Origin: Daejeonella sp.
GTDB lineage: Bacteria; Bacteroidota; Bacteroidia; Sphingobacteriales; Sphingobacteriaceae
Reading direction: 5' to 3'
NCBI RefSeq assembly: GCF_030695525.1
Contig: NZ_JAUYSS010000069.1
Span: 1-64,000 of the forward strand
DNA length: 64,000 nucleotides
The translations under genes and the position numbers were made by a program. The notes under the pieces are model-generated. The model made no database searches and was not told where the DNA came from. It worked only from the letters and a program-made list of their open reading frames with translations. Each line of letters starts with the position of its first letter. Within the stretch, counting starts at the first letter, position 1. This document shows, piece after piece, positions 6,565-27,441 of the stretch.

Positions 6565-6571
6565 AAATTCT

Positions 6572-6591
6572 CCGTTTACGTACACGTAAAT
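6572..6591. promoter_or_regulatory. Operator-like palindrome, copy 1
   Basis: The sequence CGTTTACGTACACGTAAA is an imperfect palindrome centred on a CpG. It matches five other copies upstream of minus-strand units in this locus (see 17546, 17771, 20721, 24895, 27468). Here it lies only about 8 bp before the start codon of the DUF1080 gene, so a bound repressor would also block the ribosome site. Confidence 0.6.
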
Positions 6592-6639: not shown

Positions 6640-8010
6640 TTATTTGTTTTTAATCAGTCCGATTTTCTCTGATAGTTTAATTACTTCATTCAATATCCTT
6701 GTCTCGATACCAACCTGCCATTTAGAAGGTAATCCATAAACAGTATGTGATTCTCCTTCATATGAACCTTCTTTTAGTACCAGGGATGAAGGAACATAAG
6801 CCATAACATCGTTGGAATAACCATAAACAAATGCTTCAGCACCCAGCATTTGCTTAATTTTTATCGAATATTCGATCAGAAGTTCACCTCCCAGGCTAAC
6901 AATTGGCTGATCTCCGATAGACCAAACCTGAACCGGAAAAGGATAAGAAGTCATTAACTTCTCCCCTGCCCTGATCTTTCCACGCATACGTTCAGCCCAT
7001 CTCTTTTGATAAGGTACAGTTGTAGAGCCAATGTATTTTGTGTATTCTGCCTCAGTTGGTGGTGTTGCCAGTGGAAGATCCAATTCTGAGTAAGCAGTAC
7101 TCAAACCTGAAGGTAATTTTCTCATATCTTCTTCCAGTACCCGCTCAACTGCTGCAGCGAGTTCCTTTCCATATTGCTTAGCTAAAGGGACGGTATGTCT
7201 GGGTAAAGGATTCTGGTCGGCGCCGGCACTTTGAAAAAAGAGTGCAGTGGCTCCCGGATAGGTTTTTTCAAGCTCTATCTGGGTAAATCCAGGATAATCC
7301 CCCGACCAATTATAATCACTTAAAACTGTGGGATGACAGGCATATCCAAAAGCAATGGCTTTGATATCCCCTTTGGCATTCAAAACTTTGATCACCGGTA
7401 CAGCAAAATCATTAGGACCCTGAAGTTCGGTAAGCTGGGTAAGTAAGTTTGCTGCATTATTGCGGCGATTGACCTGAAATCTGGTAACACCATTCTGAGC
7501 ATATAGCGCGGCTGGTTCCAGATTCTTCAAAGCCTCTCCCACCATATTTACAATCTGATCCTCGAGAACTTTTGTGTATTGCTTAATGCGTTCAATCTGT
7601 TGATTATCAAGAACATAAATATCCATCAGAGCGTCCCCAATTACAGGCCCTGAATGGGTATGGGAACTGTTCAGTATAATCTGAGCACGATCTAATCCAA
7701 ATTGCGATTTTACCCGGTCCCTGATCCGATCAGAAACATCTTTAGGAAAACCCAAAAGATCAGTACTGATCATTACAGCCTTATTTCCCTTAGAATCTTC
7801 CAGAGCCAGGGCTTTTGCCCATAAGGGATGTAAAGTACCTTCTGATGAATGGGTTCGGGAGGCAAAACCTGCCATAGGCATGGCCATCTTAGGGGTAATA
7901 TCAGCCTTGCTAACACCGGCTTTCCATACCAGGGCTGCATTATTCTGTGCCTGAACAGGATTGATAAATGCCAGGAAAACGATTAACAAATTAATAATTG
8001 AAATTTTCAT
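6640..8010 (-). CDS. Neutral/alkaline ceramidase-like hydrolase, secreted
   Basis: 456 residues with a Sec signal peptide (cleavage near AQ, 21-22). It begins WKAGVSKADITP, typical of the neutral/alkaline non-lysosomal ceramidase N-terminal domain, and carries the metal-site segments NSSHTHSG (114-121) and GYACHPTVL. True bacterial ceramidases have 650-700 residues with a C-terminal immunoglobulin-like domain; this protein stops after the catalytic domain. Such short members are common in Bacteroidetes and planctomycete sugar loci and their substrates are mostly unknown. Amide or ester hydrolysis on an N-acyl sugar is as likely as ceramide cleavage. It lies between an amidohydrolase and DUF1080. 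Confidence 0.75.
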   Translation of the reverse strand: MKISIINLLIVFLAFINPVQAQNNAALVWKAGVSKADITPKMAMPMAGFASRTHSSEGTLHPLWAKALALEDSKGNKAVMISTDLLGFPKDVSDRIRDRVKSQFGLDRAQIILNSSHTHSGPVIGDALMDIYVLDNQQIERIKQYTKVLEDQIVNMVGEALKNLEPAALYAQNGVTRFQVNRRNNAANLLTQLTELQGPNDFAVPVIKVLNAKGDIKAIAFGYACHPTVLSDYNWSGDYPGFTQIELEKTYPGATALFFQSAGADQNPLPRHTVPLAKQYGKELAAAVERVLEEDMRKLPSGLSTAYSELDLPLATPPTEAEYTKYIGSTTVPYQKRWAERMRGKIRAGEKLMTSYPFPVQVWSIGDQPIVSLGGELLIEYSIKIKQMLGAEAFVYGYSNDVMAYVPSSLVLKEGSYEGESHTVYGLPSKWQVGIETRILNEVIKLSEKIGLIKNK

Positions 8011-8059: not shown

Positions 8060-9055
8060 CTAAATTTTAAATAGTTTTTGTGCATTCCCGTAGAGTATTT
8101 TTCGTTCGATTGATTTATTTGGAGCTAATTTACGGATAGCCGATATGATATTAACCCCAAGGCAGGATTTTCCGGCACCCAGTGAATCAGAACAATCACT
8201 GCCAAAAAGCAATTTATCCTGATGACGCTCTAAAAAGCCGCGGGCGTGATCTTCATCCCGGGTGAGAGATCCCAAACCGGAACCTGCAGAAAAATCACCA
8301 TACAAATTTGGATACTCAGTCAGAAGACGATCAGTAAGTCCGCCCCTGCTGACAGTCCCCTTAGGATATAGAATATTCGGATCGCTGTGATTCTTATCGA
8401 TATCTGCCCACCAGGTCTGCGCATGACCTATAAAGTTCACTTTTGGGTATTTCTTCAGCATGGTATGGAAGCGTTCAATACCCCTGTTATACATATTGTG
8501 CTGCCAGTGCATCAGAACCGGAACATTATAAGAAGTTGCCAGTTCATAAATACTTTGCATAGCAGGTGAATCACAATCAAGCCCGAATTTGAGCTCCCCA
8601 ATAACAGGTGCACCCAGCTTCAGATATTTTTCAATTTCCTGCACTGCACCCGGCATATCAGGGACTTCATTTGCCCCGAAAATAAATTCATCAGAATGAG
8701 TTTTGGCAAATTGATAACATACTTCATTACCGGTAGCTTTCGCCTGCAATCCATTACTATAACCATAATAGGTTGAACCATAACTAAGCGGACGGCCTGC
8801 AGGCAATAAAATTGTTTTGGTTATACCCATTGCACGCTGATGTGGAATCAGCAGATCATTTGATCTGCCACTATAATCTGTATGCTGGTGTATATCAATA
8901 ATTGGCTCTGCCGCATTTCTAAGATCCCGGCCTGCATTATGATCCAGAGTATTTGCAATTAGGGAAGGAACAAATCCCATTGTTAGAGCTGCACCAAGCC
9001 CTGCATATGAATTTTTGATTATAAATTCACGTCTTGAGTATTCTTTTTTGAGCAT
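8060..9055 (-). CDS. Amidohydrolase-2 family metal-dependent hydrolase, Tat-exported
   Basis: 331 residues. The leader MLKKEYSRREFIIKNS followed by a hydrophobic stretch is a twin-arginine signal. The TIM-barrel metal motif HQH (56-58) in IIDIHQHTD is followed by FIGHAQTWW and LLFGSDCSDS, which supply the later His and Asp ligands of the PF04909-type family. These enzymes are decarboxylases, lactonases or hydrolases of cyclic substrates; lactone opening after oxidation of a sugar would fit the locus but is inference. The leader is similar to that of the DegT-type protein at 19273-20661 (AGLGAALTMGFVPSL against AGVGTVLTMGLTPSL). Confidence 0.8.
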   Translation of the reverse strand: MLKKEYSRREFIIKNSYAGLGAALTMGFVPSLIANTLDHNAGRDLRNAAEPIIDIHQHTDYSGRSNDLLIPHQRAMGITKTILLPAGRPLSYGSTYYGYSNGLQAKATGNEVCYQFAKTHSDEFIFGANEVPDMPGAVQEIEKYLKLGAPVIGELKFGLDCDSPAMQSIYELATSYNVPVLMHWQHNMYNRGIERFHTMLKKYPKVNFIGHAQTWWADIDKNHSDPNILYPKGTVSRGGLTDRLLTEYPNLYGDFSAGSGLGSLTRDEDHARGFLERHQDKLLFGSDCSDSLGAGKSCLGVNIISAIRKLAPNKSIERKILYGNAQKLFKI

Positions 9056-12495: not shown

Positions 12496-14310
12496 TTATT
12501 CCCAACCCGGATTTTGAGTCATTTTTAAGTTTGAAGACATTTCGTTGATTGGAATTGGCATCAAAAGATCACGGGTACTAACATTTGAGTAATATTTTAC
12601 AAAATATTGTCCCGGACTTTGTTGCTGTAATTTGTTACCCATATCCTGATGAACTTTCAGGAATGTTCCCCAACGAAGCAGATCGGCCTTTCTGGTATTT
12701 TCAAAGTTAAACTCTCTCATCCTTTCATCCTGAATTGCCTCAAGGAATGCAGCTTTTGAGGCTGGATTGATATTACCATCGGTTGCCCTGTTAATGGTAG
12801 CAGTTGCAGTTGCACCTGAGCCACCACCACCACTGATAGTAATGGTAGGAACAGTAGTATATTTTCCTTCGTTAAAAAAGGTGACTGCCATCGGATCACG
12901 GGCAAGGGTAATTTCAGTTACTCTACCTCCTGAAATAGTTGCGGTTGCAGTAGCACCACCATTTCCACTGAATGTAACGGTTGGAGCTGTGGTATAACCT
13001 GAACCGCCATTTGTTACTGTAATGGTTTTAATACCTGTAGACCAGGCTCTTCTTCTAACTTTATTGAATTGTTCAATTGCATCAGCAGTTGGACCTTTCA
13101 TTTCATTCTCTGCTTCTGCATACATTAACAAAATATCAGAATATCTTAACAGAACCATATTTATTGGAGTAGTAGTCGGACTCTGAGGTTTTAAAGTCTC
13201 ATATTCCCTTCTCCATTTTCCAGGTTTCATAAGGTTCATCGCATTTTCATTGACTGGCAATAAGCTCATGGTTTTGGCGCCTGCAGCTGTATAGGTAAAA
13301 TGAGCAATGCTAAACCATTTACGGTTATCTCCTGGCTCAAATTTATTATAGAACTCAGATGTGATATTCATGTAAGCATCTGCTCTTCCGGTTGAAGATG
13401 CCGCTCCGGCAGCAGGACCATTGATCCAGCCAATATTACCGGTTTCAACATACTGGTCGGTACGGTTTCCATAAAACTCAACTTCCCAGATACTTTCCTT
13501 GATATCATATTGATCAGCGGCAAGTTTCATGAAGATGTCAGGATAACTTGGATTCAAGGAATGACCTGCTTCAGCATCGTCAATTACCATTTTAGCCCAT
13601 TTGCTAGCTTCTGCATATCTGGTTTTATCCTTGACCGGATCACCAGCCATGTGCAAATTAACCCTTGCCAAAAGACCACGAACTGCCGATTTACTGATCG
13701 CTCCACCAAAACCTAACGTTTTAATGCCCGGAACAAGTTTTTCAGCATCTTCCATGTCTTTAATGATTTGTAAATAAACATCCTTAACGGGTGCTCTTTC
13801 CGAATCTACATCAACAACAGAAGTAGTAGGAACTACTTTCAATGGAACACCTCCAAAATACTGCACCAACGTAAAATAATAATAGCCTCTCAAAAACAAA
13901 GCCTCCCCTCTGATTGCGTCACGCTTCTCTTTGGCGATTGCAGGATTCTTATCTACATTTTTAATCAAAACATTCGCTTTATTAATGCCCGACCAAAGGT
14001 TATTCCATAAACCTGCATTATATTGATCTGCAGAGGAATAGAAATAATTCCATGGACCTGTAGTCAATGTAGCTCTGTTCATATAACCTTCATCAGCGGT
14101 CCATGCGAGCAAATAACTTGCATAAGTACCATGTAAACCACCGGCACCCAGGTGATCATAGACACCTGCACGTGCGAATTGTAACTGAGCTTCAGTCTGA
14201 TAGTAATTATCCGGATTCAGAAAATCCGTTGGAGTTGTCTCCAGATATTTCTTACATGAGCCTAAACTCAGTAAGAATAATGTTGCGAGTATATAATATT
14301 TAATTTTCAT
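12496..14310 (-). CDS. susD: RagB/SusD family glycan-binding lipoprotein with an inserted repeat module
   Basis: 604 residues. The leader ends LLSLGSC19, a lipobox. TPR-type SusD features include LRGYYYFTLVQYFGGVPL, the RDAIRGEALF helix, YSDILLMYAEAENE and the C-terminal DERMREFNFEN and NPGWE. Between VRRRAWSTG and NPASKAAF (about 427-512) there is an insertion of two glycine/threonine-rich repeats (GGSGYTTAPTVTFSG and GKYTTVPTITISGGG) that ordinary SusD proteins lack. Without it the length is the usual ~520. It binds the polysaccharide above the SusC channel encoded 20 bp upstream. Confidence 0.9.
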   Translation of the reverse strand: MKIKYYILATLFLLSLGSCKKYLETTPTDFLNPDNYYQTEAQLQFARAGVYDHLGAGGLHGTYASYLLAWTADEGYMNRATLTTGPWNYFYSSADQYNAGLWNNLWSGINKANVLIKNVDKNPAIAKEKRDAIRGEALFLRGYYYFTLVQYFGGVPLKVVPTTSVVDVDSERAPVKDVYLQIIKDMEDAEKLVPGIKTLGFGGAISKSAVRGLLARVNLHMAGDPVKDKTRYAEASKWAKMVIDDAEAGHSLNPSYPDIFMKLAADQYDIKESIWEVEFYGNRTDQYVETGNIGWINGPAAGAASSTGRADAYMNITSEFYNKFEPGDNRKWFSIAHFTYTAAGAKTMSLLPVNENAMNLMKPGKWRREYETLKPQSPTTTPINMVLLRYSDILLMYAEAENEMKGPTADAIEQFNKVRRRAWSTGIKTITVTNGGSGYTTAPTVTFSGNGGATATATISGGRVTEITLARDPMAVTFFNEGKYTTVPTITISGGGGSGATATATINRATDGNINPASKAAFLEAIQDERMREFNFENTRKADLLRWGTFLKVHQDMGNKLQQQSPGQYFVKYYSNVSTRDLLMPIPINEMSSNLKMTQNPGWE

Positions 14311-14329: not shown

Positions 14330-17300
14330 TTAAAATCCTGCTTTAATACCAAAGGCAATGGTCGGTGATCTTGGGTAGGATGAATAATCAAATCCCGGTG
14401 TTAAGGTATTATTACGGGTAGATACTTCAGGATCCATGCCTGAATAATTCGTCCATGTAATCAGGTTCTGAGCTGAAACATTTACACTCAAATTACTCAT
14501 ATACGCAGTCTTAATTAATTTTGCCGGTAAATTATAATTTAATGAAACCGTTTTCATACGAAGGAAAGAACCGTCTTCTACAACTCTTGAAGAGTGGAAA
14601 CCAATTGGCCCTTGTCCGCGGGTACGATAGTTTGCATTGGTTTGATTTTCAGGCGACCAACGGTTTGAATAGCTTGCGAACTGATTGATATTTGCCCATC
14701 CATTACTGTTACCCTCCATAATCAGTCTGTTAGCATTATAGATATCATTACCATAAGACCATTGGAAGAACACATTCAGATTGAATGCCTTATAGGTGAA
14801 ATTATTTGAAAAACCACCTGTATGGATTGGCTGACCTCTACCGATGAACGTTAAATCAGCATCATTCATAATCCCATCACCGTTCATATCCCTGTATTTG
14901 ATATCACCCGGCTGAATAGTATTACGAACGGCTCCATTGGTAGCTATGGAAGGCTTCAGGATGTAAACACCCGGAGAAGGATTTTCAAAATCGTCATACT
15001 GATAATTCCCTTCCCAAATAAAACCGATCATCATACCTGCTGGCTTACCAACTTCAGCCACATATAAAGGCTTATTAAATTGAGATACATATTCAGAATT
15101 ACTGTTCAATGAGCGCTGACCACGGGTAAGTTCCATAACTTTGTTTCTGTTGAAACTGATGTTGAAATTACTTTCCCAGATAAAGTCCTTAGACTGAACA
15201 TTAACAGTGTTTAAGGTTAATTCAAGACCATCATTTCTCAATTTACCAATATTTTTTACTGCAGAGGTAAATCCTGTAGATGGAGGCAAAATTGCATTAA
15301 GCAACAGATCCTCAGTTGTTTTACGATATAAATCAACTTCAAAGGTAATCCTGTCCTTTAATATACCTAATTCATAACCCACATCAACAGTATTCACTTT
15401 TTCCCATTGAAGATCAGGGTTACCAACTGCAGAAATGAAATTTGCTGCGATTGGAGTTGAATTATTAAATGAATAACCATTTATGCTTTGCTGCAAACGT
15501 GCATAGGTAGCAAAATCTGCCACTCTATTATTACCATTGCTACCATAACTGGTTCTTAACTTGGATGTTGAAATTCCAGGTAAAACTTTTGTAAAAAAGC
15601 CTTCTTTATGCATATTCCAGGCTAAAGCCGCTCCAGGGAAATAACCCCAGTGATTGATGAATTTAGAAGAACCATCAGCTCTGAAAGTACCGGTTACAAT
15701 GTATTTGGATTTATAGTTGTAATCTAAACGAGCGGCATAAGATGCCATGGTGTTAACACTTGAGTAGGAACCCTGATTATAAGCCAGACCTTCATCCAAT
15801 CCATCCATTCCAAGATTCTCATTCGGCAATAACCTGCCACCATAAGACTTGCCATTTGAATTATTACTATTAATCGCAAATAAGCCAAGGCCTGTAATCG
15901 TATGATCCTGCTTAAATGTTTTCTTGTAATTCAGGGTTGTTTCGTTTGAAAAACTATTTGAGAAAATGTTATTGATGGAACCATTAACTCCATTCACATT
16001 ATTCGGACTTGGTCCGCCCTGAGCTGTTTTTGAATTGTAAAAACGCTCCAGCGTCAATTTATTATGACGGATACCTGCTGTTGTTTTTAAGATCAGGTCT
16101 TTATTTATGTCATAACTAATATACCCGTTTCCTTCAACCAGATTAGTGAGATTATAAGAATGCTGATTCTGAAGATCGATAAACGGGTTAACCCTGAAAT
16201 CGGAAGCATTCATCGCTTCATCATCAACTGCGTCAGCCAGAAGGTCATCGTTTGGATTAGGTGTAATTGGACGGTATAACCAAGTTCTTGCCAAAGCAAA
16301 AGCTGTTGGGTTGCCTGAGGTCACCGCTCCCTGATTAATAATCTGACCGTTTTGTTTGATTCCGCTATAATTAGCAGTTACCCCTGCCTTAATTTTATTA
16401 CTGATTGTTTGGTCAACAGTTACCCGACCTGAATAACGATTAAACCCGGTATTGATGATAGAACCAGCCTGATCAAATAAAGACCCGGAGATGGAGTATT
16501 TAGTTTGTTCATTACCACCTCTTAATGCAAGGTTGTAGTTCTGAACTGTTCCCTGTCTCAAAACATAATCCTGGAAATTAATTCCCTCAACCCCTCTGTA
16601 ATCTTCAAGAGTTTTTCCATTGGCAAAAAATGCCCTTGTAGTTGCAGCATTGGGGTTTAATTCCGTCTGATATTTGATAAACTCATATGGACTCATCAAT
16701 TCCATTGGTTTGGGAACTGCTTGAAGTCCATAGGAGCTGGAAAAACTAACAGTTGATTTTCCAACTTTTCCACGTTTTGTCTGGATCAAAATTACTCCGT
16801 TGGCAGCTCTTGATCCATAGATCGCTGTTGAAGAAGCATCCTTTAATATGGTCATTGATTCGATCTCTTCAGGATTGATCGATGCAGGATCCGGATCTTC
16901 AACCGGGAATCCATCAATAACGTACAATGGAGAGGTACTTTGTGTCAAAGAGCCGGCTCCTCTGATAACGATATTGATACCACCCCCTGGCTGACCATCA
17001 GCTGCATTTACCTTTACACCGGCAACACGACCAGCCAAAGCCTCAGCGAATGTTCCTACCGGAGCTTTCATCATATCATCCATTGGAACAACTCCAACAG
17101 ATCCGGTAAGATCGGGCTTGGCAACTGTGCCATAACCAATTACCACAACTTCACTTAAAGAAGAACTTGAAACAAGTAAAGTAACGTCAATTGTGGTGCG
17201 GTTTCCAACCACAAGTTCCTGGGTTTGCATCCCAAGAAATGCAAACACAAGTGTTTCATTACTTGCAGCCTGAATACTGTACTTTCCATTTGCCAGGGTT

Positions 17301-17506
17301 GTAGTACCTCTGGTAGATCCCTTAACCCGTACGGTCACCCCGGGCAATGGCTGTCCATCCTCGAGAACTGTACCCGTAACATTCTTTAATTGCTGGGAAA
17401 AAGCCTGCTCAGAAAAACTGAGGAAAAGGATCAGCAGCATTACTACCCCTACTCCGGAGGGATAATACCTTTGTTTTTTAAACTTCATCATGTAAATTTT
17501 TAGCAT
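14330..17506 (-). CDS. susC: SusC/RagA family TonB-linked outer membrane transporter
   Basis: 1058 residues. After a signal peptide ending in FSQQ there is a carboxypeptidase-like domain (VTGTVLEDGQPLPGVTVRV, about 43-120), then the plug with SEVVVIGYGT and the SusC signature LYVIDGFPV, SINPEEIESMTILKDA and YGSRAANGVI, and a long beta-barrel. It imports oligosaccharides with the SusD partner encoded 20 bp downstream. The first ATG (17506) and ATGs at 17491 and 17488 are all possible; none has a clear ribosome site. Two palindromic operators lie upstream, one between putative promoter elements. Confidence 0.93.
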   Translation of the reverse strand: MLKIYMMKFKKQRYYPSGVGVVMLLILFLSFSEQAFSQQLKNVTGTVLEDGQPLPGVTVRVKGSTRGTTTLANGKYSIQAASNETLVFAFLGMQTQELVVGNRTTIDVTLLVSSSSLSEVVVIGYGTVAKPDLTGSVGVVPMDDMMKAPVGTFAEALAGRVAGVKVNAADGQPGGGINIVIRGAGSLTQSTSPLYVIDGFPVEDPDPASINPEEIESMTILKDASSTAIYGSRAANGVILIQTKRGKVGKSTVSFSSSYGLQAVPKPMELMSPYEFIKYQTELNPNAATTRAFFANGKTLEDYRGVEGINFQDYVLRQGTVQNYNLALRGGNEQTKYSISGSLFDQAGSIINTGFNRYSGRVTVDQTISNKIKAGVTANYSGIKQNGQIINQGAVTSGNPTAFALARTWLYRPITPNPNDDLLADAVDDEAMNASDFRVNPFIDLQNQHSYNLTNLVEGNGYISYDINKDLILKTTAGIRHNKLTLERFYNSKTAQGGPSPNNVNGVNGSINNIFSNSFSNETTLNYKKTFKQDHTITGLGLFAINSNNSNGKSYGGRLLPNENLGMDGLDEGLAYNQGSYSSVNTMASYAARLDYNYKSKYIVTGTFRADGSSKFINHWGYFPGAALAWNMHKEGFFTKVLPGISTSKLRTSYGSNGNNRVADFATYARLQQSINGYSFNNSTPIAANFISAVGNPDLQWEKVNTVDVGYELGILKDRITFEVDLYRKTTEDLLLNAILPPSTGFTSAVKNIGKLRNDGLELTLNTVNVQSKDFIWESNFNISFNRNKVMELTRGQRSLNSNSEYVSQFNKPLYVAEVGKPAGMMIGFIWEGNYQYDDFENPSPGVYILKPSIATNGAVRNTIQPGDIKYRDMNGDGIMNDADLTFIGRGQPIHTGGFSNNFTYKAFNLNVFFQWSYGNDIYNANRLIMEGNSNGWANINQFASYSNRWSPENQTNANYRTRGQGPIGFHSSRVVEDGSFLRMKTVSLNYNLPAKLIKTAYMSNLSVNVSAQNLITWTNYSGMDPEVSTRNNTLTPGFDYSSYPRSPTIAFGIKAGF

Positions 17507-17863: not shown

Positions 17864-19210
17864 CTAATTAAATGGATTAGCAACCTTTATCAGATCCGTA
17901 CGTGTAGATCCATTTTCTGTAATCCTGGCCAGTGCATAAACTTCGCCATCCTTTCCAACAGCAATCGAATTTACATATAAGGGACGGTCTCCGTTCGGGT
18001 AAAATACAGGACCATGATCCTGATACTTACCTTCAGGTATATTATAAGTAATTAAGTGAAGATTTTCAAGAGCTTTTGCAGCACCTTTAGCAATTTCAGA
18101 CTGACCGGTGACTCGTTTCCCATTGCTGTAAACCGGTCCGCCAGTAAGGTAATAAATGGTTTTACCATCAGGGCCAAGTTGAAAACCCAGATAGCCATAA
18201 CTAAACTGATCGAACATACCACTTTTTGCCGAGGGCTCTGAAGTAATACGTCTTACCAATTCAATTTTGGATTTTTTAGGATCAAAACGGAATAAATATC
18301 CGGAATTTCCATGAACTCCATAAGCGACACCCTCGGGTTTATACCAGAAGATTTTTCTCCAGTTATAACCCATACTTCCTGGTCTTGTTGGATCGTATTT
18401 GCCAAAGTAATCGAGCCGGAGATTAACATTTTCAAGTTTAATGATTTGCCCGACTTCAGGATTATAGCTAAAAATATCACCTTCTGAAGTCGAAAAATAT
18501 ACAGTCCCATCAGAAGGATCTACCACAAGTGAACGGCATAATGAGCGAAAATCTTCACCAGCTACACCGCCTTCACCATTTCCGGATATTTGACCCAGAT
18601 CTTTTAGTCTATTATTATCAATATCATAATGTATAAAATTACCTTTCGGCCAGGAAATACCAAAGATTTGGCCACGTTCCCGATCCATTGTCATGGATAC
18701 CATACCTTCTCCATTGGGAACAAGGGCAAGATTTTCGAATACTCTGCTTTGCAGGTCATATGATAAAATCTGACCACCCGGATAGAGCTTGTAACCGGCG
18801 GGAGGGTTAACCGGCAGACGGTCCATTCCATCGATTAACTCATAATACCCCACATGGGTTGAAAAGTAAAGTTTACCGTTCATTTCAAAGAACCGGGCAT
18901 GGCTTTTCCCCTGAGGGATAAACATTTGATCCTTTTCACCGCATATTTCAGTCAAATCTCCAAGCAATTCAGTTTTATCAGTCTCCGGATCATACAGGTA
19001 CAGTTTACCTCCTACATGGATTTGGTCTGATGATAAAACATAATAGATTTTACCATCACTGGCAGCTGTCAAAGCATTGTATGTATCGTGTGCCTCTTGA
19101 AACCCCGAATTATAAGTCTTAGCAGTCAGATATTTTTCCTCAGCAATTTCATCTATAAAAGCAGTAGTATTTAATTGGTTCAACTCAACAATTCCGTCTA
19201 ATTTGTTCAT
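17864..19210 (-). CDS. Beta-propeller repeat protein of unknown function
   Basis: 448 residues. Repeating segments of the form G-x-hydrophobic-Y-hydrophobic (KIYYVLSSD, KLYFSTHVG, TVYFSTSEGDIFSYNP, GYLFRFDPKK, TIYYLTGGPVY, EVYALARI) mark a six- or seven-bladed propeller. No signal peptide is visible, which is odd because nearly all neighbours are exported. Propellers of this kind occur in uronate/oligogalacturonate lyases and sugar-binding proteins, but no catalytic motif can be assigned. It lies 63 bp after the DegT-type gene. Confidence 0.6.
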   Translation of the reverse strand: MNKLDGIVELNQLNTTAFIDEIAEEKYLTAKTYNSGFQEAHDTYNALTAASDGKIYYVLSSDQIHVGGKLYLYDPETDKTELLGDLTEICGEKDQMFIPQGKSHARFFEMNGKLYFSTHVGYYELIDGMDRLPVNPPAGYKLYPGGQILSYDLQSRVFENLALVPNGEGMVSMTMDRERGQIFGISWPKGNFIHYDIDNNRLKDLGQISGNGEGGVAGEDFRSLCRSLVVDPSDGTVYFSTSEGDIFSYNPEVGQIIKLENVNLRLDYFGKYDPTRPGSMGYNWRKIFWYKPEGVAYGVHGNSGYLFRFDPKKSKIELVRRITSEPSAKSGMFDQFSYGYLGFQLGPDGKTIYYLTGGPVYSNGKRVTGQSEIAKGAAKALENLHLITYNIPEGKYQDHGPVFYPNGDRPLYVNSIAVGKDGEVYALARITENGSTRTDLIKVANPFN

Positions 19211-19272: not shown

Positions 19273-20661
19273 TTATTTTTCTAATGATTTTTTTACTGAT
19301 TCTGCACTTGCCTGTATCTTGTTGATGGCATAGGCAATCGAATCCATATCTTCCCTGCTACCAAGAAGCAAGTTCTGAGTGAACCACACCATTTCGGTAC
19401 ATAAAAGGTCATTCTCAGGGCACTGATTTTGTTCCATATATTTATCATAATCAAGCATATCTTTATGATACATTCTCTTATAATTTTTTGAAGCAAAAGC
19501 ATCTTTAAGAAATTCCTGTTTATTCAAAGGAGTATAACCGCCAGAACAAGGCACACCTTCTGCGCGTAAAGCCTGTAAAAATGCATTTCTGGATAAGCCT
19601 TTAAAGTCCTCTTTCTTATATCTGAATGAAAACAAATGGAATGAAACGCGGGTTGCACAATCATGTAGCTTATAAGGAACTATCCCTAGAATATTCTGAA
19701 TCTTTGATTTTAAATACTTCGCATTCTCTTCACGAACAGTGGTTTGTGCATCAAGTCTTTGTAACTGAGCTAAACCTATGGCTGCCTGATATTCTGTAAT
19801 ACGTACTTTTGTTCCAATCCTGATGCTTCCGGCATTAAATGTCCCAACTGCGGTTCCAAAAGGCAATCCGAGATTCTGGAAAGAAACACAGCGATCCATA
19901 AAGGAGATATCATTACTTAGAATCGCACCGCCTTCACCAATCGGAATATTTTTTGAGTTTTGAAAACTGAAACATCCTGCATTCCCAATTGTACCAACCT
20001 TTTGATTATTAACTTCAGTAAGTGGTGCCTGGCAGGCATCTTCAACTACATATAGATTATGTTTTCTGGCAATTTCCATTATTCTTGGCATATCTGCCGG
20101 CATGCCTAAAATATGAACGGGCAAAATTGCTTTTGTACGAGGCGTAATCTTTGCTTCTATTTTAGCAGGATCAATCTGGTATGTTTCCGGATCTATATCA
20201 ACAAACACCGGCATAGCTCCGTTCATCAATATGGCCTGAACCGTAGATATAAAAGTATAGGGTGGAACAAGAACTTCATCACCCCCCTTAATATCCAGTT
20301 GATTCAATGCAACAATCAAAGCATTGGTTCCATTGTTTACAACTAAACAACGTTTAGCACCGTTGGCATTTGCCCAGGCTGCTTCAAATTCGTTGACTAC
20401 CCCGGCACGCGACCAAACCCCACTTCTAAGAACTTCAAGAACACGCTTTTCATCAGTTTCAGGTATCCATATTGGCCATTTGATCCATTTGGCTTTATCC
20501 CATGCCGATGGACCACCCAGAATTGCGGGTCTTGCTGAACTATTCAAATCCCCGGCTAACAATGAAGGAGTTAATCCCATTGTTAAAACAGTTCCCACGC
20601 CTGCCATGGAGCTCTGTTTTAGAAATTTGCGTCTCGATGAATCGGTGTTTTTATTTTTCAT
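19273..20661 (-). CDS. DegT/DnrJ/EryC1/StrS-family PLP enzyme, Tat-exported
   Basis: 462 residues. The leader DSSRRKFLKQSSMAGVGTVL is a twin-arginine signal, consistent with export of a folded PLP protein. The fold type I core shows NNGTNAL (109-115), VPPYTF, the PLP-ring aspartate D208 in VVEDACQAP and the Schiff-base lysine K237 in FSFQNSKNIPIGEGG. Classical members transaminate keto-sugars in the cytosol using glutamate; an exported version lacks an obvious amino donor. It may take amino groups from an amino sugar or do other PLP chemistry on a keto-sugar made by the neighbouring oxidoreductases. An operator copy lies 60 bp upstream. Confidence 0.85.
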   Translation of the reverse strand: MKNKNTDSSRRKFLKQSSMAGVGTVLTMGLTPSLLAGDLNSSARPAILGGPSAWDKAKWIKWPIWIPETDEKRVLEVLRSGVWSRAGVVNEFEAAWANANGAKRCLVVNNGTNALIVALNQLDIKGGDEVLVPPYTFISTVQAILMNGAMPVFVDIDPETYQIDPAKIEAKITPRTKAILPVHILGMPADMPRIMEIARKHNLYVVEDACQAPLTEVNNQKVGTIGNAGCFSFQNSKNIPIGEGGAILSNDISFMDRCVSFQNLGLPFGTAVGTFNAGSIRIGTKVRITEYQAAIGLAQLQRLDAQTTVREENAKYLKSKIQNILGIVPYKLHDCATRVSFHLFSFRYKKEDFKGLSRNAFLQALRAEGVPCSGGYTPLNKQEFLKDAFASKNYKRMYHKDMLDYDKYMEQNQCPENDLLCTEMVWFTQNLLLGSREDMDSIAYAINKIQASAESVKKSLEK

Positions 20662-20813: not shown

Positions 20814-22016
20814 TTACCTGATTACAACTCCAATCATGTCAATAGAAATTCCAGCATGTGGAAAACCAACATCTTTTACCATAGCCTTGGAGGCTGCCGG
20901 CGGACGAAGCGGATCATAGTATTTAGGACGAATTTCATTTAATTTTGCACTGTGTACATCGTTGCTAACATAATATGTGGCCTTCACAAGATGCCTGAAG
21001 TCACTTCCCGTGTTTTTCAGAATTGTACCCATTGATGTGAAAATGGAGGTCAGATCAGAATCTGCATTCCCCGTAATTTGTCCGTATAATCCTGATATAA
21101 ATATCTTTTGCCCATAATTAATCCGGGTAACCTTACAGTAAACAGGTGAAGCTGTCATTCCCGGAGGTGTAATAAAATCCAATTGCTGATTGGACTTAGT
21201 TGCTGCATTTACTGATGAAGCAATTAATTCTATTTCAATAACAGGGTCTGTACTTGTCCACTCCACATTTACAAGTGGTGGAATTGTAGCGCCTTTAAAG
21301 AATTTGGCAAACTCCTGCTCTACAATCTTCAGATCAGACATCGGCCTGATAAAAGATTTAATCTGAACAATATCTTTTTTATCCAATCCAATGGATAGCA
21401 GAGTGGCCTGAAGTTGCTCTAATGTCCCCCGTGTTGCTTCAGCAAGTTCGCCCTTTATAGCCTGGCCTGAAACATAAACCACCGGACCTGCAGGCAAAAT
21501 TGCAGCCCTGGCAGTGCCCTGATCAGATGACAAATCCTCAGGCATGTAATAATTAACACTTTCAGGCCTCATTTTACCTGCAACTGCAACGGCATCCATA
21601 GAAACCAATATATCAGGATGGGACAGATCACCCGCAACAAAACTCAAAGCAGGCTTTTTGCCTGTTTTAAAGCGCTTATTGATATGTGCCTGAACTACAG
21701 TTATCTGGTTTGAATTCCTGAGATAGACATTAAGTTTAACCACCATTTTCAGGTTTGAATCTGCCTTTTTTAAAGCTGAAGAAATATTAGAAAAAATCTG
21801 GCTGATCTGAGCATTGATATCACCGGATCCAACAATATTACCGGATTTATCCAAAGGGAGAAATTGGGTGGTATGAACAAGAGGTACATCATCAACAATT
21901 ACTGCATCAGATGATCCTAAAAGGCTTGAAGTTCCTGAATACTGAATGTGTTGACCTTTTTGGGCAAAAACATATGTACCAAGAAATAAGAAATAAATAC
22001 AGATCAGAGTTCTCAT
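20814..22016 (-). CDS. Secreted protein with three fused RidA (YjgF/UK114) domains
   Basis: 400 residues with a signal peptide ending VFAQ (19). Three RidA-like domains follow at about 25-147, 165-270 and 285-398, each with the VxVxG/FxSG...ALKxxGS...VVKxNVYL pattern. RidA proteins are homotrimers with active sites between subunits; three domains in one chain could form the ring alone. The arginine that binds the substrate carboxylate (the R of PARS in E. coli RidA) is replaced in every domain: L124 (PALS), L248 (PPLV), A375 (PAAS). Enamine deamination as in RidA is therefore doubtful. It is about 150 bp upstream of the exported PLP enzyme gene. Confidence 0.8.
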   Translation of the reverse strand: MRTLICIYFLFLGTYVFAQKGQHIQYSGTSSLLGSSDAVIVDDVPLVHTTQFLPLDKSGNIVGSGDINAQISQIFSNISSALKKADSNLKMVVKLNVYLRNSNQITVVQAHINKRFKTGKKPALSFVAGDLSHPDILVSMDAVAVAGKMRPESVNYYMPEDLSSDQGTARAAILPAGPVVYVSGQAIKGELAEATRGTLEQLQATLLSIGLDKKDIVQIKSFIRPMSDLKIVEQEFAKFFKGATIPPLVNVEWTSTDPVIEIELIASSVNAATKSNQQLDFITPPGMTASPVYCKVTRINYGQKIFISGLYGQITGNADSDLTSIFTSMGTILKNTGSDFRHLVKATYYVSNDVHSAKLNEIRPKYYDPLRPPAASKAMVKDVGFPHAGISIDMIGVVIR

Positions 22017-22181: not shown

Positions 22182-22565
22182 CTAATTATTAATCGGTGCC
22201 CAATAAGCACAATAACCTTCGGCGCGAACCGGTCCTTTAAACAACATACATCCACCACAAGGTTTGTCCTTAGCCGGTGGAAGATAAAGTGCACAATTGC
22301 TGCAATGATTATCCGGAATGGGTGTATCATTCACGTATGCAAGTTTTTTACGTTTTGCAACTTCTTCGGTACTTACTCCAGTAAGATCGTCACAAGGGTT
22401 TTTTTTAACAGGCTGAGGAGTTTTGGGTTGTTGCTGTGAATCTCCTTCTTTAGCCATGCTCATTACTGAACTGCCGGCAATCAACATACCTGTTCCTAAT
22501 GTAACTGAACCGGCAAGTATATACTTACTAATGAACCTTCTTCTTGAAAATTTTTGCTTTTCCAT
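22182..22565 (-). CDS. High-potential iron-sulfur protein (HiPIP), Tat-exported
   Basis: 127 residues. MEKQKFSRRRFISKY begins a twin-arginine leader, the usual route for HiPIPs since the cluster is inserted before export. The ligands are C88, C91 (HCSNCAL), C106 (GGCMLFKGPV) and C119 (GYCAYW); the spacing 2-14-12 is close to the classical 2-14-13. C103 is an extra Cys. HiPIPs are soluble periplasmic one-electron carriers. Being just downstream (41 bp) of the propeller dehydrogenase, it is a good candidate for its electron acceptor, with the cupredoxin at 1-713 as another carrier. Confidence 0.9.
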   Translation of the reverse strand: MEKQKFSRRRFISKYILAGSVTLGTGMLIAGSSVMSMAKEGDSQQQPKTPQPVKKNPCDDLTGVSTEEVAKRKKLAYVNDTPIPDNHCSNCALYLPPAKDKPCGGCMLFKGPVRAEGYCAYWAPINN

Positions 22566-22574
22566 CCTTTTTAT

Positions 22575-22588
22575 TTTAACCGGTTAAA
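22575..22588. promoter_or_regulatory. Perfect 14-bp palindrome before the HiPIP gene
   Basis: TTTAACCGGTTAAA is a perfect palindrome lying 10 bp before the HiPIP start codon, in the 41-bp spacer after the dehydrogenase stop. It could be an operator or simply a chance AT-rich palindrome; it differs from the ACGTAC-type operator. Confidence 0.35.
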
Positions 22589-22606
22589 TATTCTGTAAGA
22601 AAATTT

Positions 22607-24709
22607 TTAATTTTTTCTTAGTAATTGGAATCCTTCCTTAACATCTTCAATTGAACTGGCATTTAATTGCCCTGAAAGCTCTTTTGTATTCTCGTTTTTA
22701 TTTAATCCTGCTTTTAGTCCTTTTAAAGCTGCAATTTGCAGGTTTGGTGCTGAAAGTGCAGCAGTAGAAAGAGTATTTAAATATGCTGAAAACTGTTCCT
22801 TGTTATACCTGGCTCCTATAATATTTGACAAATCCTGAAGAAAACTAAGTTTCCAGGTTTCTTCATTGCTAAAGAATTCCTTATCCTGAACAAGGGAATT
22901 TAGAATTTCAACTGAAGATCCGGCCTCTGAGCTAATTACTGCACTCCTGAACCAATCATTCTGGCCGTATTTCTTAATAACCTCTGCCAAAGCTGCATGC
23001 ACCTTTTTACCTTTAAATTCCCCCAGACTAAGTGCCGCCTGCAAAGCAACGCGCTTTGATGGATCATTAATCATTGAAATTAACTGCTTACTACTTTTCG
23101 GATATCGTTCTGCAAGTATGATGCCATTTTCCCGAACTCCGGGTTCAGAATCAAGCAATGACTGTTTCACAATCTTTTGCGTAAGTGCATTCAAACCTTC
23201 AAGTACATAAAGGGCATGTAGCCTTGTTCTTGGATCAGGACTATTCGAAAATAATGAAATCACAGCAGGAACAACAGTTTTATCCTGACGTTCCAGCAGC
23301 AAACGTTGTGCATTACTTCGATGCCAGCCGTTTTTGTGCGACAGATAGTCCACTAATTGAAGACCAGATGCATTCTTCAGGTCTACTTTTGCACCCTGAT
23401 AGGTGCCATTTTCTGGTAATAGCCGGTAAATCCTGCCCATATCACTACCGGCCATAAAATCCATTTCGGCTTTAAGATCATCAGGTATTGATACGGGGGT
23501 TTCGATATGTTGTCTGTAATAATCAAGAATATATAAATACCCGTCGGGGCCAACTGAGAAGGTAACCGGACGGAACCAGGTATCAGTAGAATAGATAAAC
23601 TCTCTGTCCTTTTCAGTTTCAGCACGTTTTGCGACGAATACAGGACTTGTTTCACTTGGACTTAAAATATCTCTGTGGACAAGGCTTCCCGATACATCAG
23701 TTGTAAATATATTGCCATAAAATTCCTGTGGCAGTGCATCACCATTGTAAATAGTACCTCCGGATGCACCTGTAAAGTGATCTTCTGCCCATTCTATTCT
23801 GTTCAAGTTTGCCTCTTTAAACATCCTGTTTCTACGGGCACTTCTTTCAGCTCTCCAATAGGCCGGCGGAATCTCCTGAAACATGATCTCTTCATGGTCT
23901 GTAATAGATACATTGAACTTACTGCTTGGCATAAATGGATGTCTGTGGGTATATCTCCATGGAATGACAGCTTGTTGTAAGTGAATGGAATTTTCAGTAA
24001 AGAATCGATGTCCCCAGTCGTTAATTGTTTGTCCAAACTGTCCCGGGCCGGTCTCCAGCTCAAAAACATCCCGGTCTAATCTGAAACGGAAATCAGCTCC
24101 CCTAACTTCAACTGGTGCCGCATCAGGGGTTTTACTATAAGTTACTTTACCACTCTGACCACGGTTGTTTGCGTAGATCCAATTATCGATCCCTAATTTC
24201 AAACTGGTAACCTGAGCCTCCGAATTATTCTGAAAGAACCCGGAAAACAAAATTTCCCTGATATCAGATTTCCCATCCCCATTGGTATCTTTAAGGTAGA
24301 GAATATTAGGAGCAGCGGTTACTATTAGTCCGCCTTTCCATGGGAGCATACTGGTAGCTTCTGTTACATTCTCGGCAAATATGATAGACTGATCGATTTT
24401 ACCATCACCGTCAGTATCTTTCAATATCCTGATACGGCCATGGCCTTTTCCAGGCTCAACCTCATAGGGATAATCGGGCATTTCAATAACATAGGTATTT
24501 CCCTGCTCGTCAAATTCGAGTGCTACAGGGTCAAAAACGTGTGGCTCTGAGGCAAACAAGGAAACTTTATAGCCTTTAGCTACATTTAATGTCTTCATTG
24601 ACTCCTCCGGACTTAGAGGTCCGGGATAGCGCTGAGCTATACTGTTTACTGCTAATAAAATAAATGTTAATGATAATATGGCTGATTTGCCATTGAAATT
24701 AGTCTTCAT
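22607..24709 (-). CDS. PVC-type membrane-bound dehydrogenase-like protein (propeller plus HEAT repeats)
   Basis: 700 residues with a signal peptide ending SIAQ. Residues about 30-420 are a sorbosone/glucose-dehydrogenase-like propeller of the PVC family: SLFASEP, PVALEFDEQGNTYVIE, calcium-type loops KDTDGDGKID and KDTNGDGKSD, GPGQFGQTINDWG, TTDVSGSLVHR and GPDGYLYILDYYR. Residues about 430-680 form HEAT-like helical repeats (RLHALYVLEGL, RVALQAALSLGEF). Many relatives end in a CxxCH haem domain; none is present here, so electrons would have to leave through a separate carrier such as the HiPIP 41 bp downstream. Probable periplasmic sugar or polyol oxidation; substrate unknown. Confidence 0.82.
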   Translation of the reverse strand: MKTNFNGKSAILSLTFILLAVNSIAQRYPGPLSPEESMKTLNVAKGYKVSLFASEPHVFDPVALEFDEQGNTYVIEMPDYPYEVEPGKGHGRIRILKDTDGDGKIDQSIIFAENVTEATSMLPWKGGLIVTAAPNILYLKDTNGDGKSDIREILFSGFFQNNSEAQVTSLKLGIDNWIYANNRGQSGKVTYSKTPDAAPVEVRGADFRFRLDRDVFELETGPGQFGQTINDWGHRFFTENSIHLQQAVIPWRYTHRHPFMPSSKFNVSITDHEEIMFQEIPPAYWRAERSARRNRMFKEANLNRIEWAEDHFTGASGGTIYNGDALPQEFYGNIFTTDVSGSLVHRDILSPSETSPVFVAKRAETEKDREFIYSTDTWFRPVTFSVGPDGYLYILDYYRQHIETPVSIPDDLKAEMDFMAGSDMGRIYRLLPENGTYQGAKVDLKNASGLQLVDYLSHKNGWHRSNAQRLLLERQDKTVVPAVISLFSNSPDPRTRLHALYVLEGLNALTQKIVKQSLLDSEPGVRENGIILAERYPKSSKQLISMINDPSKRVALQAALSLGEFKGKKVHAALAEVIKKYGQNDWFRSAVISSEAGSSVEILNSLVQDKEFFSNEETWKLSFLQDLSNIIGARYNKEQFSAYLNTLSTAALSAPNLQIAALKGLKAGLNKNENTKELSGQLNASSIEDVKEGFQLLRKN

Positions 24710-24945: not shown

Positions 24946-27441
24946 TTAATTAGGGCTTTTACTAAAAACTGTAAAATGTACAGGATCGGAATACTCATTA
25001 TGGGGGAAAGTATGAAAACGAACCCTCCGATCTTTGTCCATTGAAAATCCGGGATCATTCTCCAATTGAATGATGCTGCCGGAAATATGTTTTGCCGGAA
25101 AATACAAACTTGACCGATCGGGAAAATCTAAACGAACATGAGAAACATCAGAGACATCAGCATCGAGTTCTAAATTATACTTACCTGCTGCATGATGTAT
25201 ACCTTTTAATAATCCGGACTGAGACGTGCCTTTATCATACTTCCATCCTGCACTTGATATAAGGCTGATTTTATCCCCTTGCAGACTAATCCGGTCTTGA
25301 ACATTTTTGCCATTTAATTCATAATCAATTAGATAAGTATCACCTTCCGTACGCACTGACTTTATCCAGGGCTGGCTTTGGAAAGGTTCATGAACGGCAA
25401 TAAAACTGGATCTGCCTCCTTTTTGTCTTTGCATGATTCCAATGCGCATATAATTATCGAGTTTATTATCATCTTCAGCAGCAAGCCTGACAGATGGGGC
25501 ACGAAAACTGAAAATCTCAGTATCTTTTTGAGGGATATGATGGGTGCGAAGTCCGGAATTTTGATATTTCCAGGTTGCAGTCCAGGGTTTTACTGCGGTA
25601 CCTGCCTTTATATCTTTCATATAAGAATAGGCATGAATTTTCTTCCCAATGATATCAGAATCATACTGGTTAAGAGGTACACCAGTCCCCCCCCATTCTG
25701 GTACCAGTGTTTTAACCGGGCGTTCCATTGAAATATTCGTTTCCAATATTCCTTCTTCTTCACACATTCCATGCAAAAACCAGTCGTGCGTCTCCCCTCC
25801 TTCCACATCAAAACGATCGATCACATAATCCCTTCCTTCTGCTGCATGAACAAATATCAGCCTTCTCCGGTATTCGCCGGCTATTGAATAGGCTGGAGAT
25901 GCATCAAGATCAACAACCTTTACATGCGGGTTTTGGTCATCATAATACATTAATCGGCCCGTCACAGGTTCTGTTACTGTTCCATGATCCTGTGCTTTCT
26001 GGTCTATAACAACGGTATTATGAGAGGCGGTATGTAATGTCCAGCCACGATATTTGGAATGGGTATAACCAATATCTGAAAGCAATTCAGCACCATTGGC
26101 AAATAAGATAATGGAAGCATTATCATAGTGAGAATGACCATAATTGCCGCTCCAGTTTACATTGATCAGGGTTTGATCCTTTCCGGTACCGGCGGCAAGG
26201 GCTGCATTACCAAGTGAGGGCCAAAGGCGTGAAACAGAAACACCGCTGGTTTTCACTGGTGTAGCCCTGTTAGCCCAGGTATCATTGAGAGGCAGTTTAT
26301 GCCCGTTTGGGAATACTGCATGTTGGCTTACATTGATTGCATTCTTATAAAAAGGCATAGATTCAGTCAGATCAAGGTTTTCAAAACGTTCGCCTTTCCA
26401 ATCCGCAGGATCTGTATAACCTTTTGCGGCCTTTGCCACACTCTCAAGTCCGCCAATTGTCTGATCATGATAAGAAACTGTACCTTCTTTCCACCAGCCA
26501 TCCGCAAAAAAACCAAGTTTTAAAAATTCTCTGAACCGATTCACCCCATCGTGAACAATATCCGGCCTGTTCAGTATCCGACCAAGCCTCACCATATCCC
26601 TGTACATCCCGGGCGACATATTGGTATAAATTTCGGGATTCGCGGCAGTAAACTCATAGCCTGAAATTAATAGGTCCTTTACAATTCTTTGATCAGTATT
26701 TTTACCTATTTGTGAATCCATTCTGCTCCAGTCATAAGCTCCATCCTGTAAATTTTCATATGCCGTAGCGATCTGTACCGGAATATCTCCATAAGCCCAC
26801 CAATTCCATTTGGCTCCCCTATAAGGAACCAGTCCTTCATAAGGCCATTTCTGATTTGCAGGAAAAAACTTTTTTGGAGCACTAGGATAATCATAGCGGA
26901 TCGCATAATCAGGGAAAAGCTGTGCGAAACGACCTGCAATCAGCGCAGCCCTGTCGCCATAGTCAGGATCTTTGGTCTGTGCCCATATCTGAGACAGTTG
27001 AACAGCCATTTGCTGAATCCATTTCCAGCGATCGAACCAGGCATGGGCCTCATAATAATACTGAGTGCCTTGCGCATTTTGATGATAGCGGTAAACCTGT
27101 TTTATGCCGCTGGGAGCTATTATTACTTTTTCGCCATTATGGGGATATTTTTCATTTGGAAAGGTCATGCTGCAGAATTTGCATTTAACCTGATCAGCCA
27201 TTCCCGGCTCCCAATTTAATATCCCCATCTCCTGAGCACCCCCGTTGCAATTCGGACAACCGATAAAAAAAATACCCGATCCGGGTGGTACGAGATTCTT
27301 TATCTCATTGAGGGGCATCTTCATCAAAGCATCAACTGATGCAATTTGAGCCTCAGTAATCTTTGATTTTTGTTGTCCATTAGCAAGTCCGGGAAAAACA
27401 ATTGCCAGAACTAATATTACTTTAAATGCCCCTTTAATCAT
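24946..27441 (-). CDS. Heparinase II/III-like polysaccharide lyase, secreted
   Basis: 831 residues with a signal peptide ending ANGQ. After a Cys4 motif (C62-x2-C65, C87-x2-C90) probably binding zinc, an alpha-toroid domain runs to about 420. The heparinase II/III beta-sandwich follows, with the signature NYGHSHYDNASIILF and LHTASHNTVVIDQ containing the His/Tyr residues used by these lyases. The family cleaves uronic-acid-containing glycans (heparin/heparan, alginate, glucuronan) by beta-elimination, giving unsaturated uronates; which polymer is not clear. It is the first gene of the locus and has its own operator. Confidence 0.85.
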   Translation of the reverse strand: MIKGAFKVILVLAIVFPGLANGQQKSKITEAQIASVDALMKMPLNEIKNLVPPGSGIFFIGCPNCNGGAQEMGILNWEPGMADQVKCKFCSMTFPNEKYPHNGEKVIIAPSGIKQVYRYHQNAQGTQYYYEAHAWFDRWKWIQQMAVQLSQIWAQTKDPDYGDRAALIAGRFAQLFPDYAIRYDYPSAPKKFFPANQKWPYEGLVPYRGAKWNWWAYGDIPVQIATAYENLQDGAYDWSRMDSQIGKNTDQRIVKDLLISGYEFTAANPEIYTNMSPGMYRDMVRLGRILNRPDIVHDGVNRFREFLKLGFFADGWWKEGTVSYHDQTIGGLESVAKAAKGYTDPADWKGERFENLDLTESMPFYKNAINVSQHAVFPNGHKLPLNDTWANRATPVKTSGVSVSRLWPSLGNAALAAGTGKDQTLINVNWSGNYGHSHYDNASIILFANGAELLSDIGYTHSKYRGWTLHTASHNTVVIDQKAQDHGTVTEPVTGRLMYYDDQNPHVKVVDLDASPAYSIAGEYRRRLIFVHAAEGRDYVIDRFDVEGGETHDWFLHGMCEEEGILETNISMERPVKTLVPEWGGTGVPLNQYDSDIIGKKIHAYSYMKDIKAGTAVKPWTATWKYQNSGLRTHHIPQKDTEIFSFRAPSVRLAAEDDNKLDNYMRIGIMQRQKGGRSSFIAVHEPFQSQPWIKSVRTEGDTYLIDYELNGKNVQDRISLQGDKISLISSAGWKYDKGTSQSGLLKGIHHAAGKYNLELDADVSDVSHVRLDFPDRSSLYFPAKHISGSIIQLENDPGFSMDKDRRVRFHTFPHNEYSDPVHFTVFSKSPN

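Follow-up and report, generated by a model that had tools for sequence, protein, structure and literature searches.

What accepts the electrons of a putative dehydrogenase that lacks the haem-binding domain for which its family is named? The question is raised by a stretch of 64,000 nucleotides from Daejeonella sp. (Sphingobacteriaceae, Bacteroidota; assembly GCF_030695525.1, contig NZ_JAUYSS010000069.1, positions 1 to 64,000; hereinafter the window), in which the gene for a PVC-type propeller protein is followed downstream on the same strand, after a gap of 41 bp (22566-22606), by the gene for a high-potential iron-sulfur protein (HiPIP). On the sequence comparisons described here, the HiPIP is probably the dedicated external electron acceptor of the propeller enzyme and replaces a fused module. 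The two genes encode the following proteins:

22607-24709, minus strand: propeller protein of the PVC type (DUF7133/TIGR02604), haem-less, with HEAT repeats, 700 amino acids (aa), Sec-type signal read by eye
22182-22565, minus strand: HiPIP with a twin-arginine translocation (Tat)-type start, 127 aa, PF01355, ligand cysteines 88, 91, 106 and 119, additional cysteines 58 and 103

The larger protein matches DUF7133 (PF23500; E = 6.1e-116, 388.3 bits against a cut-off of 27), HEAT_2 (1.7e-11) and TIGR02604, the N-terminal domain by which the PVC-type family is recognized (272.9 bits, cut-off 122.2), and its 700 aa contain no CxxCH, the haem-binding motif of the family's namesake domain. The nearest named relatives, with up to 92% identity, belong to Daejeonella and other Sphingobacteriales. 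When GTDB genomes were scanned with a profile built from 14 dehydrogenases, 139 relatives were found, of which the best 80 by similarity were kept, and the figures for this set accordingly refer to close relatives only; the record titles of all 80 name Bacteroidota or groups that we take to be Bacteroidota. A C-terminal CxxCH is found in none of the 79 relatives that were scored: 78 have no CxxCH at all, and the remaining one (L169) has a single motif at residue 6, in the signal region. Truncation of a cytochrome c form was considered and rejected, given that the frames of the 79 relatives span 666-793 aa. The relative left out of the scoring, L190 (Kriegella sp. EG-1), carries one in-frame stop in the dehydrogenase frame, which is either a sequencing error or a sign of recent decay; the HiPIP frame that follows is open in the stretch read.

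The 127-aa protein matches PF01355 with 29 bits against a cut-off of 22, and its closest match in PDB is 3h31 (E = 3.7e-19), which we take to be the HiPIP of Rhodothermus marinus. The ligand cysteines were assigned by alignment and by what we assume to be the usual HiPIP pattern; all four are present in each of the 89 distinct HiPIPs compared. Three genes were retrieved twice (L024/L140, L026/L142 and L028/L152), and these duplicates are contained in counts of 92 and removed from counts of 89. Of the 89 proteins, 84 have both cysteine 58 and cysteine 103, and the other five have neither; these five come from the same five loci (L159, L184, L192, L194 and L197) in which one gene separates the pair. 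Because the two residues are lost together, a disulphide between them is suggested. The N terminus reads RRRF, and an RRx[FLIV] motif is in frame in 90 of 92 HiPIPs, three genes being counted twice, so that Tat-type export is predicted; the start of the HiPIP of L205 is more like that of a lipoprotein. An earlier, sequence-only reading of the window, which had described a dehydrogenase with HEAT repeats and without CxxCH and, 41 bp further on, a Tat-type HiPIP with four cysteine ligands, thus agrees with the domain matches, the 700-aa translation, the RRRF start and the alignment.

Among 300 genomes of the order, 13 have a PF01355 protein, with one Pfam match each, and exactly these 13 genomes contain the 14 close copies of the dehydrogenase (49-100% identity, more than 690 bits); the next relative listed in the 300 genomes has 36% identity and 339 bits. 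A HiPIP follows the dehydrogenase in all 14 copies, window included. Among the 12 other neighbourhoods read, it lies directly behind the dehydrogenase in 11 according to the table of open reading frames (ORFs) and in the twelfth (L033) according to the three forward frames, and the second dehydrogenase copy of genome G231 is also followed by a HiPIP, one that is absent from the Pfam listing.

The same arrangement prevails among the 80 relatives from the GTDB scan, where a HiPIP profile search of the loci detected a HiPIP near the dehydrogenase in 76. It is located directly downstream on the same strand, within 250 bp, in 69 loci, some 2 kb downstream, beyond an intervening ORF of 630-668 aa, in the five loci named above, and in convergent orientation on the opposite strand, within 60 bp, in two (L186 and L205); the reference point of all offsets is the beginning of the stop-to-stop frame and not a start codon. 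When the ORFs of 81 loci, window included, were clustered, the HiPIP was the commonest neighbour (71 loci), followed by an amidohydrolase (30) and a DegT aminotransferase (20). The pair is thus conserved beyond chance across many Bacteroidota; conservation was one of the checks that the sequence-only reading had proposed, and the pair is conserved within the order and in the GTDB scan alike. The occurrence of homologous dehydrogenases without a HiPIP, which that reading had named as one finding that would speak against its proposal, is confined to the edges, namely four of the 80 close relatives and distant paralogues that end in a fused cytochrome c or a cupredoxin-like domain.

The converse dependence does not hold elsewhere in the phylum. 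In a phylum-wide draw, HiPIPs were found in 32 of 395 genomes, at 33 places; apart from the window's own genome, 31 of these were examined through 32 stretches, each 6-15 kb long, and the profile recovered the HiPIP in all 32 stretches, together with the dehydrogenase (tblastn and profile) in one stretch only (L132, from G542, a genome of the same class). Thirty of the 32 HiPIP-bearing genomes in this draw have a HiPIP without the dehydrogenase. In a class-wide draw, the HiPIP profile matched in 12 of 395 genomes, of which three weak matches (E = 5.0e-4 to 9.3e-4, covering at most positions 3-81 of 124) were set aside. Of the nine credible HiPIPs, three are paired (window, G542 and G456) and six stand alone, the latter being less similar to the paired type (76-106 versus 150-181 bits). 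Given that HiPIPs mostly occur without the dehydrogenase in both draws, there is no general link between HiPIPs and dehydrogenases; the pairing is a feature of a single lineage of each.

The other members of the DUF7133 family carry electron outlets of different kinds. In the genome of the window, DUF7133 matches occur at 12 places, which were read as 11 proteins; among the ten paralogues, seven have CxxCH, one (C2:88079) has a fused cupredoxin (PF00127, 33.2 bits), one is cut by the contig end and one is a form of 498 aa. Nine members from related genomes, 1001-1189 aa in length, end in a cupredoxin-like motif, a call that rests on the motif, given that Pfam reported no PF00127 in L057, the only one of the nine that was scanned. 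Four PVC-type proteins with this C-terminal motif are L057, L058, L060 and L061 (1163 aa), and L057 additionally has an N-terminal ThuA domain. A tree was built from 84 proteins, 58 of them HiPIP-linked and 26 not (tips picked by homology, one of the 26 cut by a contig end, root set arbitrarily on one tip); in it, all 58 HiPIP-linked proteins form a single clade (Shimodaira-Hasegawa-like support 0.956), a result that applies to close relatives only. Its sister group (0.94) comprises 12 proteins, 11 of them cytochrome c-fused and one cut by the contig end, and the ten cupredoxin-type proteins fall outside both groups under the arbitrary root. The simplest history would be one loss of the fused cytochrome c with the gain of a separate HiPIP.

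A further arrangement is seen in G231, where a cupredoxin homologue (L029:9817-10986) directly precedes a 502-aa DUF7133-like protein (L029:10991-12499) for which Pfam lists no HEAT repeats. This arrangement hints at another haem-less dehydrogenase, whose copper-containing partner would be a protein of its own. The 498-aa paralogue mentioned above, on contig C39 of the window's own genome (L043:5010-6506), has a start similar to that of the 502-aa protein.

Taken together, these comparisons lead us to propose that the propeller protein is an exported DUF7133 oxidoreductase without a built-in electron outlet, that the adjoining HiPIP would serve as its dedicated one-electron acceptor, standing in for the cytochrome c or cupredoxin-like domain at the C terminus of the paralogues, and that the reduced HiPIP would pass its electron, on the periplasmic side, to a caa3- or cbb3-like terminal oxidase of aerobic respiration. 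Haem-copper oxidases are indeed encoded at three places in the genome; one cluster, on another contig, is presumably an alternative complex III with a caa3 oxidase and another presumably a cbb3 oxidase, both names being read from sequence features. The idea that the genome is devoid of c-type cytochromes was dismissed, given 43 places with Cytochrom_C matches.

The pair is part of a run of genes on the same strand, from 27441 down to 1, which includes:

24946-27441, minus strand: heparinase II/III-like protein, upstream of the pair; its cluster is present in 9 of 81 loci, window included
20814-22016, minus strand: RidA-like (Ribonuc_L-PSP) protein, three matched stretches, N-terminal signal by eye
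19273-20661, minus strand: DegT/DnrJ-type pyridoxal phosphate-dependent aminotransferase, N terminus with RR (Tat-like); its cluster is represented in 20 of the 81 loci, that of the window among them
17864-19210, minus strand: protein of 448 aa, predicted propeller; its cluster recurs in 16 of the 81 loci, the window being one of them
14330-17506, minus strand: SusC-like protein, from sequence features
12496-14310, minus strand: SusD-like protein, from sequence features
8060-9055, minus strand: Amidohydro_2 protein with an RR N terminus
6640-8010, minus strand: Ceramidase_alk-like protein, domain match
5869-6585, minus strand: 3-keto-disaccharide hydrolase domain (PF06439, formerly DUF1080), domain match
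4440-5843, minus strand: Gfo/Idh/MocA-type oxidoreductase, domain match
739-2112, minus strand: enolase-superfamily protein, twin-arginine-like start by eye
1-713, minus strand: plastocyanin/azurin-type cupredoxin (PF00127, 29.1 bits against a cut-off of 21.2), gene open at the contig start

The names SusC-like and SusD-like are putative. The second commonest neighbour in the clustering, with 30 of 81 loci, consists of homologues of the Amidohydro_2 gene (four members checked); homologues of the RidA-like protein adjoin the pair in L024, L026, L027, L028 and L029, and Ceramidase_alk-like homologues lie beside it in several loci. The aminotransferase, the enolase-superfamily protein and the amidohydrolase all have twin-arginine-like starts, read by eye, from which several enzymes of the locus may be predicted to be exported in the folded state. 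The 17864-19210 protein has no Pfam or NCBIfam match, and eight aligned homologues are 60-78% identical to it. Its model (pLDDT, the predicted local distance difference test, 79.9) resembles many propellers equally well, with streptogramin B lyase 2qc5 on top (Z = 26.8), so that no function follows from the fold search. The locus resembles a polysaccharide-utilization locus, and three of its products (those with the 3-keto-disaccharide hydrolase domain, the Gfo/Idh/MocA type and the heparinase-like type) weakly indicate a sugar, glycoside or uronide handled there as the most likely substrate.

In the fold comparison, the AlphaFold2 model of the dehydrogenase (pLDDT 92) matches best the pyrroloquinoline quinone (PQQ)-dependent sugar dehydrogenase 3a9g (Z = 24.5, root-mean-square deviation 3.2, 284 aligned residues), followed by other PQQ sugar dehydrogenases (2ism, Z = 23.2; 7cgz, 22.9; 2g8s, 22.5). 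Sequence searches of PDB with the protein alone or with its profile retrieved mostly designed alpha-repeat proteins, via the HEAT part, and no PQQ enzyme. The arginine of the WFRP motif is retained in 57 of 58 aligned proteins, and PQQ is a possible cofactor, which the host may scavenge. PqqE scores over the cut-off in none of the 300 genomes of the order and below it in 238, with the controls likewise never over the cut-off, and a search for PqqC yielded no match, its control also matching nowhere.

Several observations weigh against an electron-transferring pair. For four of the 80 relatives (L170, L173, L200 and L202), the stretch read contains no HiPIP; L170 has a paired copy on the same contig (L181), L200 and L202 have paired copies in records of the same isolate (L213 and L189, respectively), and the contig of L173 ends 1.1 kb downstream of the dehydrogenase. 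The distances among the dehydrogenases correlate with those among the HiPIPs (r = 0.832 for 89 distinct pairs, a value reached in none of 999 permutations), a correlation that could come from shared ancestry alone. Fold scores nearly equal to those of the PQQ enzymes are reached by the hedgehog-interacting protein (Z = 23.0), DFPase (about 21) and Drp35 (20.2). PF07995 (GSDH) does not match the dehydrogenase at E = 0.001 and does match at 17 other places in the genome, and hhalign of the dehydrogenase profile against five GSDH proteins of the same genome aligned 92 columns (E = 4.4e-6), in the last blades only. The catalytic His144 of sGDH is reported to be conserved in a fungal enzyme (PMC6881789, excerpt); by eye in the MAFFT alignment, the candidates for the equivalent position are E164 (57 of 58) and A165 (51 of 58), never histidine, and the GHRN motif of GSDH reads GHRF, a register that is uncertain because hhalign aligned 92 columns only. 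No biochemistry of a dehydrogenase-HiPIP pair was found in the open-licence literature searched. The only bench result on the DUF7133 family that we found, in the available portion of PMC5342196, is that the cytochrome c-fused Lac161_ORF7 (TIGR02604, HEAT and cytochrome c) hydrolyses lactose with a Km of 1.8 mM.

The proposals of the sequence-only reading are supported in part. The partnership itself is strongly backed by the gene pairing, in 76 of the 80 relatives and in all 14 copies within the order. The identity as a sugar dehydrogenase is putative. As for the lack of a redox cofactor site, which had been named as a refutation, the fold is closest to that of the PQQ sugar dehydrogenases, but the canonical histidine base and its asparagine partner are apparently not retained.

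The same observations feed the most durable of the alternatives, namely that the propeller protein is a glycosidase or a lyase and that the HiPIP serves some other redox step, a sensor role or protection. Besides the lactose hydrolysis by Lac161_ORF7, the apparent absence of the canonical PQQ residues, the nearly equal Z scores of hydrolase propellers and of the hedgehog-interacting protein, and the PqqE result, for what it is worth without a positive control, all fit this explanation. However, the family recurs with cytochrome c, with cupredoxin and with HiPIP, three redox modules that are unrelated to one another, which is hard to explain without electron flow, and an apparent glycosidase activity could follow from oxidation to a 3-keto sugar, given that, in the accessible text of PMC9007349, a DUF1080 protein is proposed to hydrolyse 3-keto sugars (3'-ketolactose) from a periplasmic dehydrogenase. 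We therefore regard a purely hydrolytic or lytic enzyme as unlikely.

Still less probable appears to be a HiPIP that is a general respiratory carrier, as in R. marinus, and lies beside the dehydrogenase incidentally. The closest solved relative, 3h31, is presumably the R. marinus protein, the genome has an apparent alternative complex III cluster along with haem-copper oxidase, and HiPIPs dispense with the dehydrogenase in most genomes of the phylum draw and in six of the nine credible cases of the class draw. The alternative complex III of R. marinus is described as reducing HiPIP (PMC5928083 and PMC8552683, excerpts), which would suit such a role. Against this, in the 300 genomes of the order the HiPIP occurs only where the dehydrogenase is present, and beside it; the inverted and the one-gene-apart arrangements still keep the pair together; and the stand-alone HiPIPs are the less similar ones by bit score. 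Finally, it is very improbable that the dehydrogenase uses the cupredoxin 1-713, with the HiPIP serving a different enzyme of the locus: the cupredoxin does belong to the same gene run, as the sequence-only reading had pointed out and the PF00127 match bears out, and paralogues do end in fused cupredoxin-like domains, but in G231 the cupredoxin directly precedes the 502-aa DUF7133-like protein, a more natural partner, and no ORF matched it at E = 1e-4 in 81 neighbourhoods of about 6 kb on each side, compared with 71 for the HiPIP, a comparison of limited weight given that, in the window, 21 kb of the same strand separate the pair from the cupredoxin gene downstream.

A dedicated HiPIP acceptor hence remains the explanation that we favour. 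In a broader and more tentative form, which we consider possible although the odds are against it, the pair might represent an undescribed periplasmic sugar-oxidizing respiration in Bacteroidota, in which a propeller with a changed site (glutamate in place of the histidine base, possibly with a cofactor other than PQQ) would deliver electrons to its own HiPIP, with cytochrome c, cupredoxin and HiPIP having replaced one another as the outlet within one enzyme family. The known roles of HiPIPs lie mainly in photosynthesis, in iron oxidation and with alternative complex III; among the matches listed in a search of the open-licence literature, no earlier description of a HiPIP beside a PVC-type dehydrogenase was found. 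If the proposal is correct, a HiPIP dedicated to one substrate-oxidizing enzyme would be a new use of these proteins; a separate, soluble and coloured partner would offer a direct spectroscopic assay for the activity, cofactor and substrate of the many-membered DUF7133 family; and the exchange of carriers within one family would be a natural experiment on the swapping of electron outlets.

Among known systems, the PQQ-dependent soluble sugar dehydrogenases (Asd, sGDH and the AA12 pyranose dehydrogenase) have the closest propeller fold and share the WFRP arginine, whereas here the histidine base and its asparagine partner are apparently not retained, PF07995 does not match and HEAT repeats are added. 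The lactose 3-dehydrogenase LacABC, which is flavin- and cytochrome-linked, is unrelated to the propeller protein. The likeness to that system lies in a sugar that would be oxidized in the periplasm and in a neighbouring DUF1080 protein (PMC9007349), the DUF1080 domain being present at this locus too. The R. marinus-type HiPIP (3h31), the closest solved relative, has the same six-cysteine pattern in the alignment; its role is to accept electrons from alternative complex III (PMC5928083 and PMC8552683, excerpts), whereas the HiPIP gene of the window is tied to a dehydrogenase gene. The PVC-type haem-binding dehydrogenases (TIGR02604/DUF7133), such as Lac161_ORF7, have the same N-terminal domain and the same HEAT repeats, but in place of their C-terminal cytochrome c there is here a separate HiPIP gene, so that the haem-less propeller and its HiPIP add a further version to a modular family already known.

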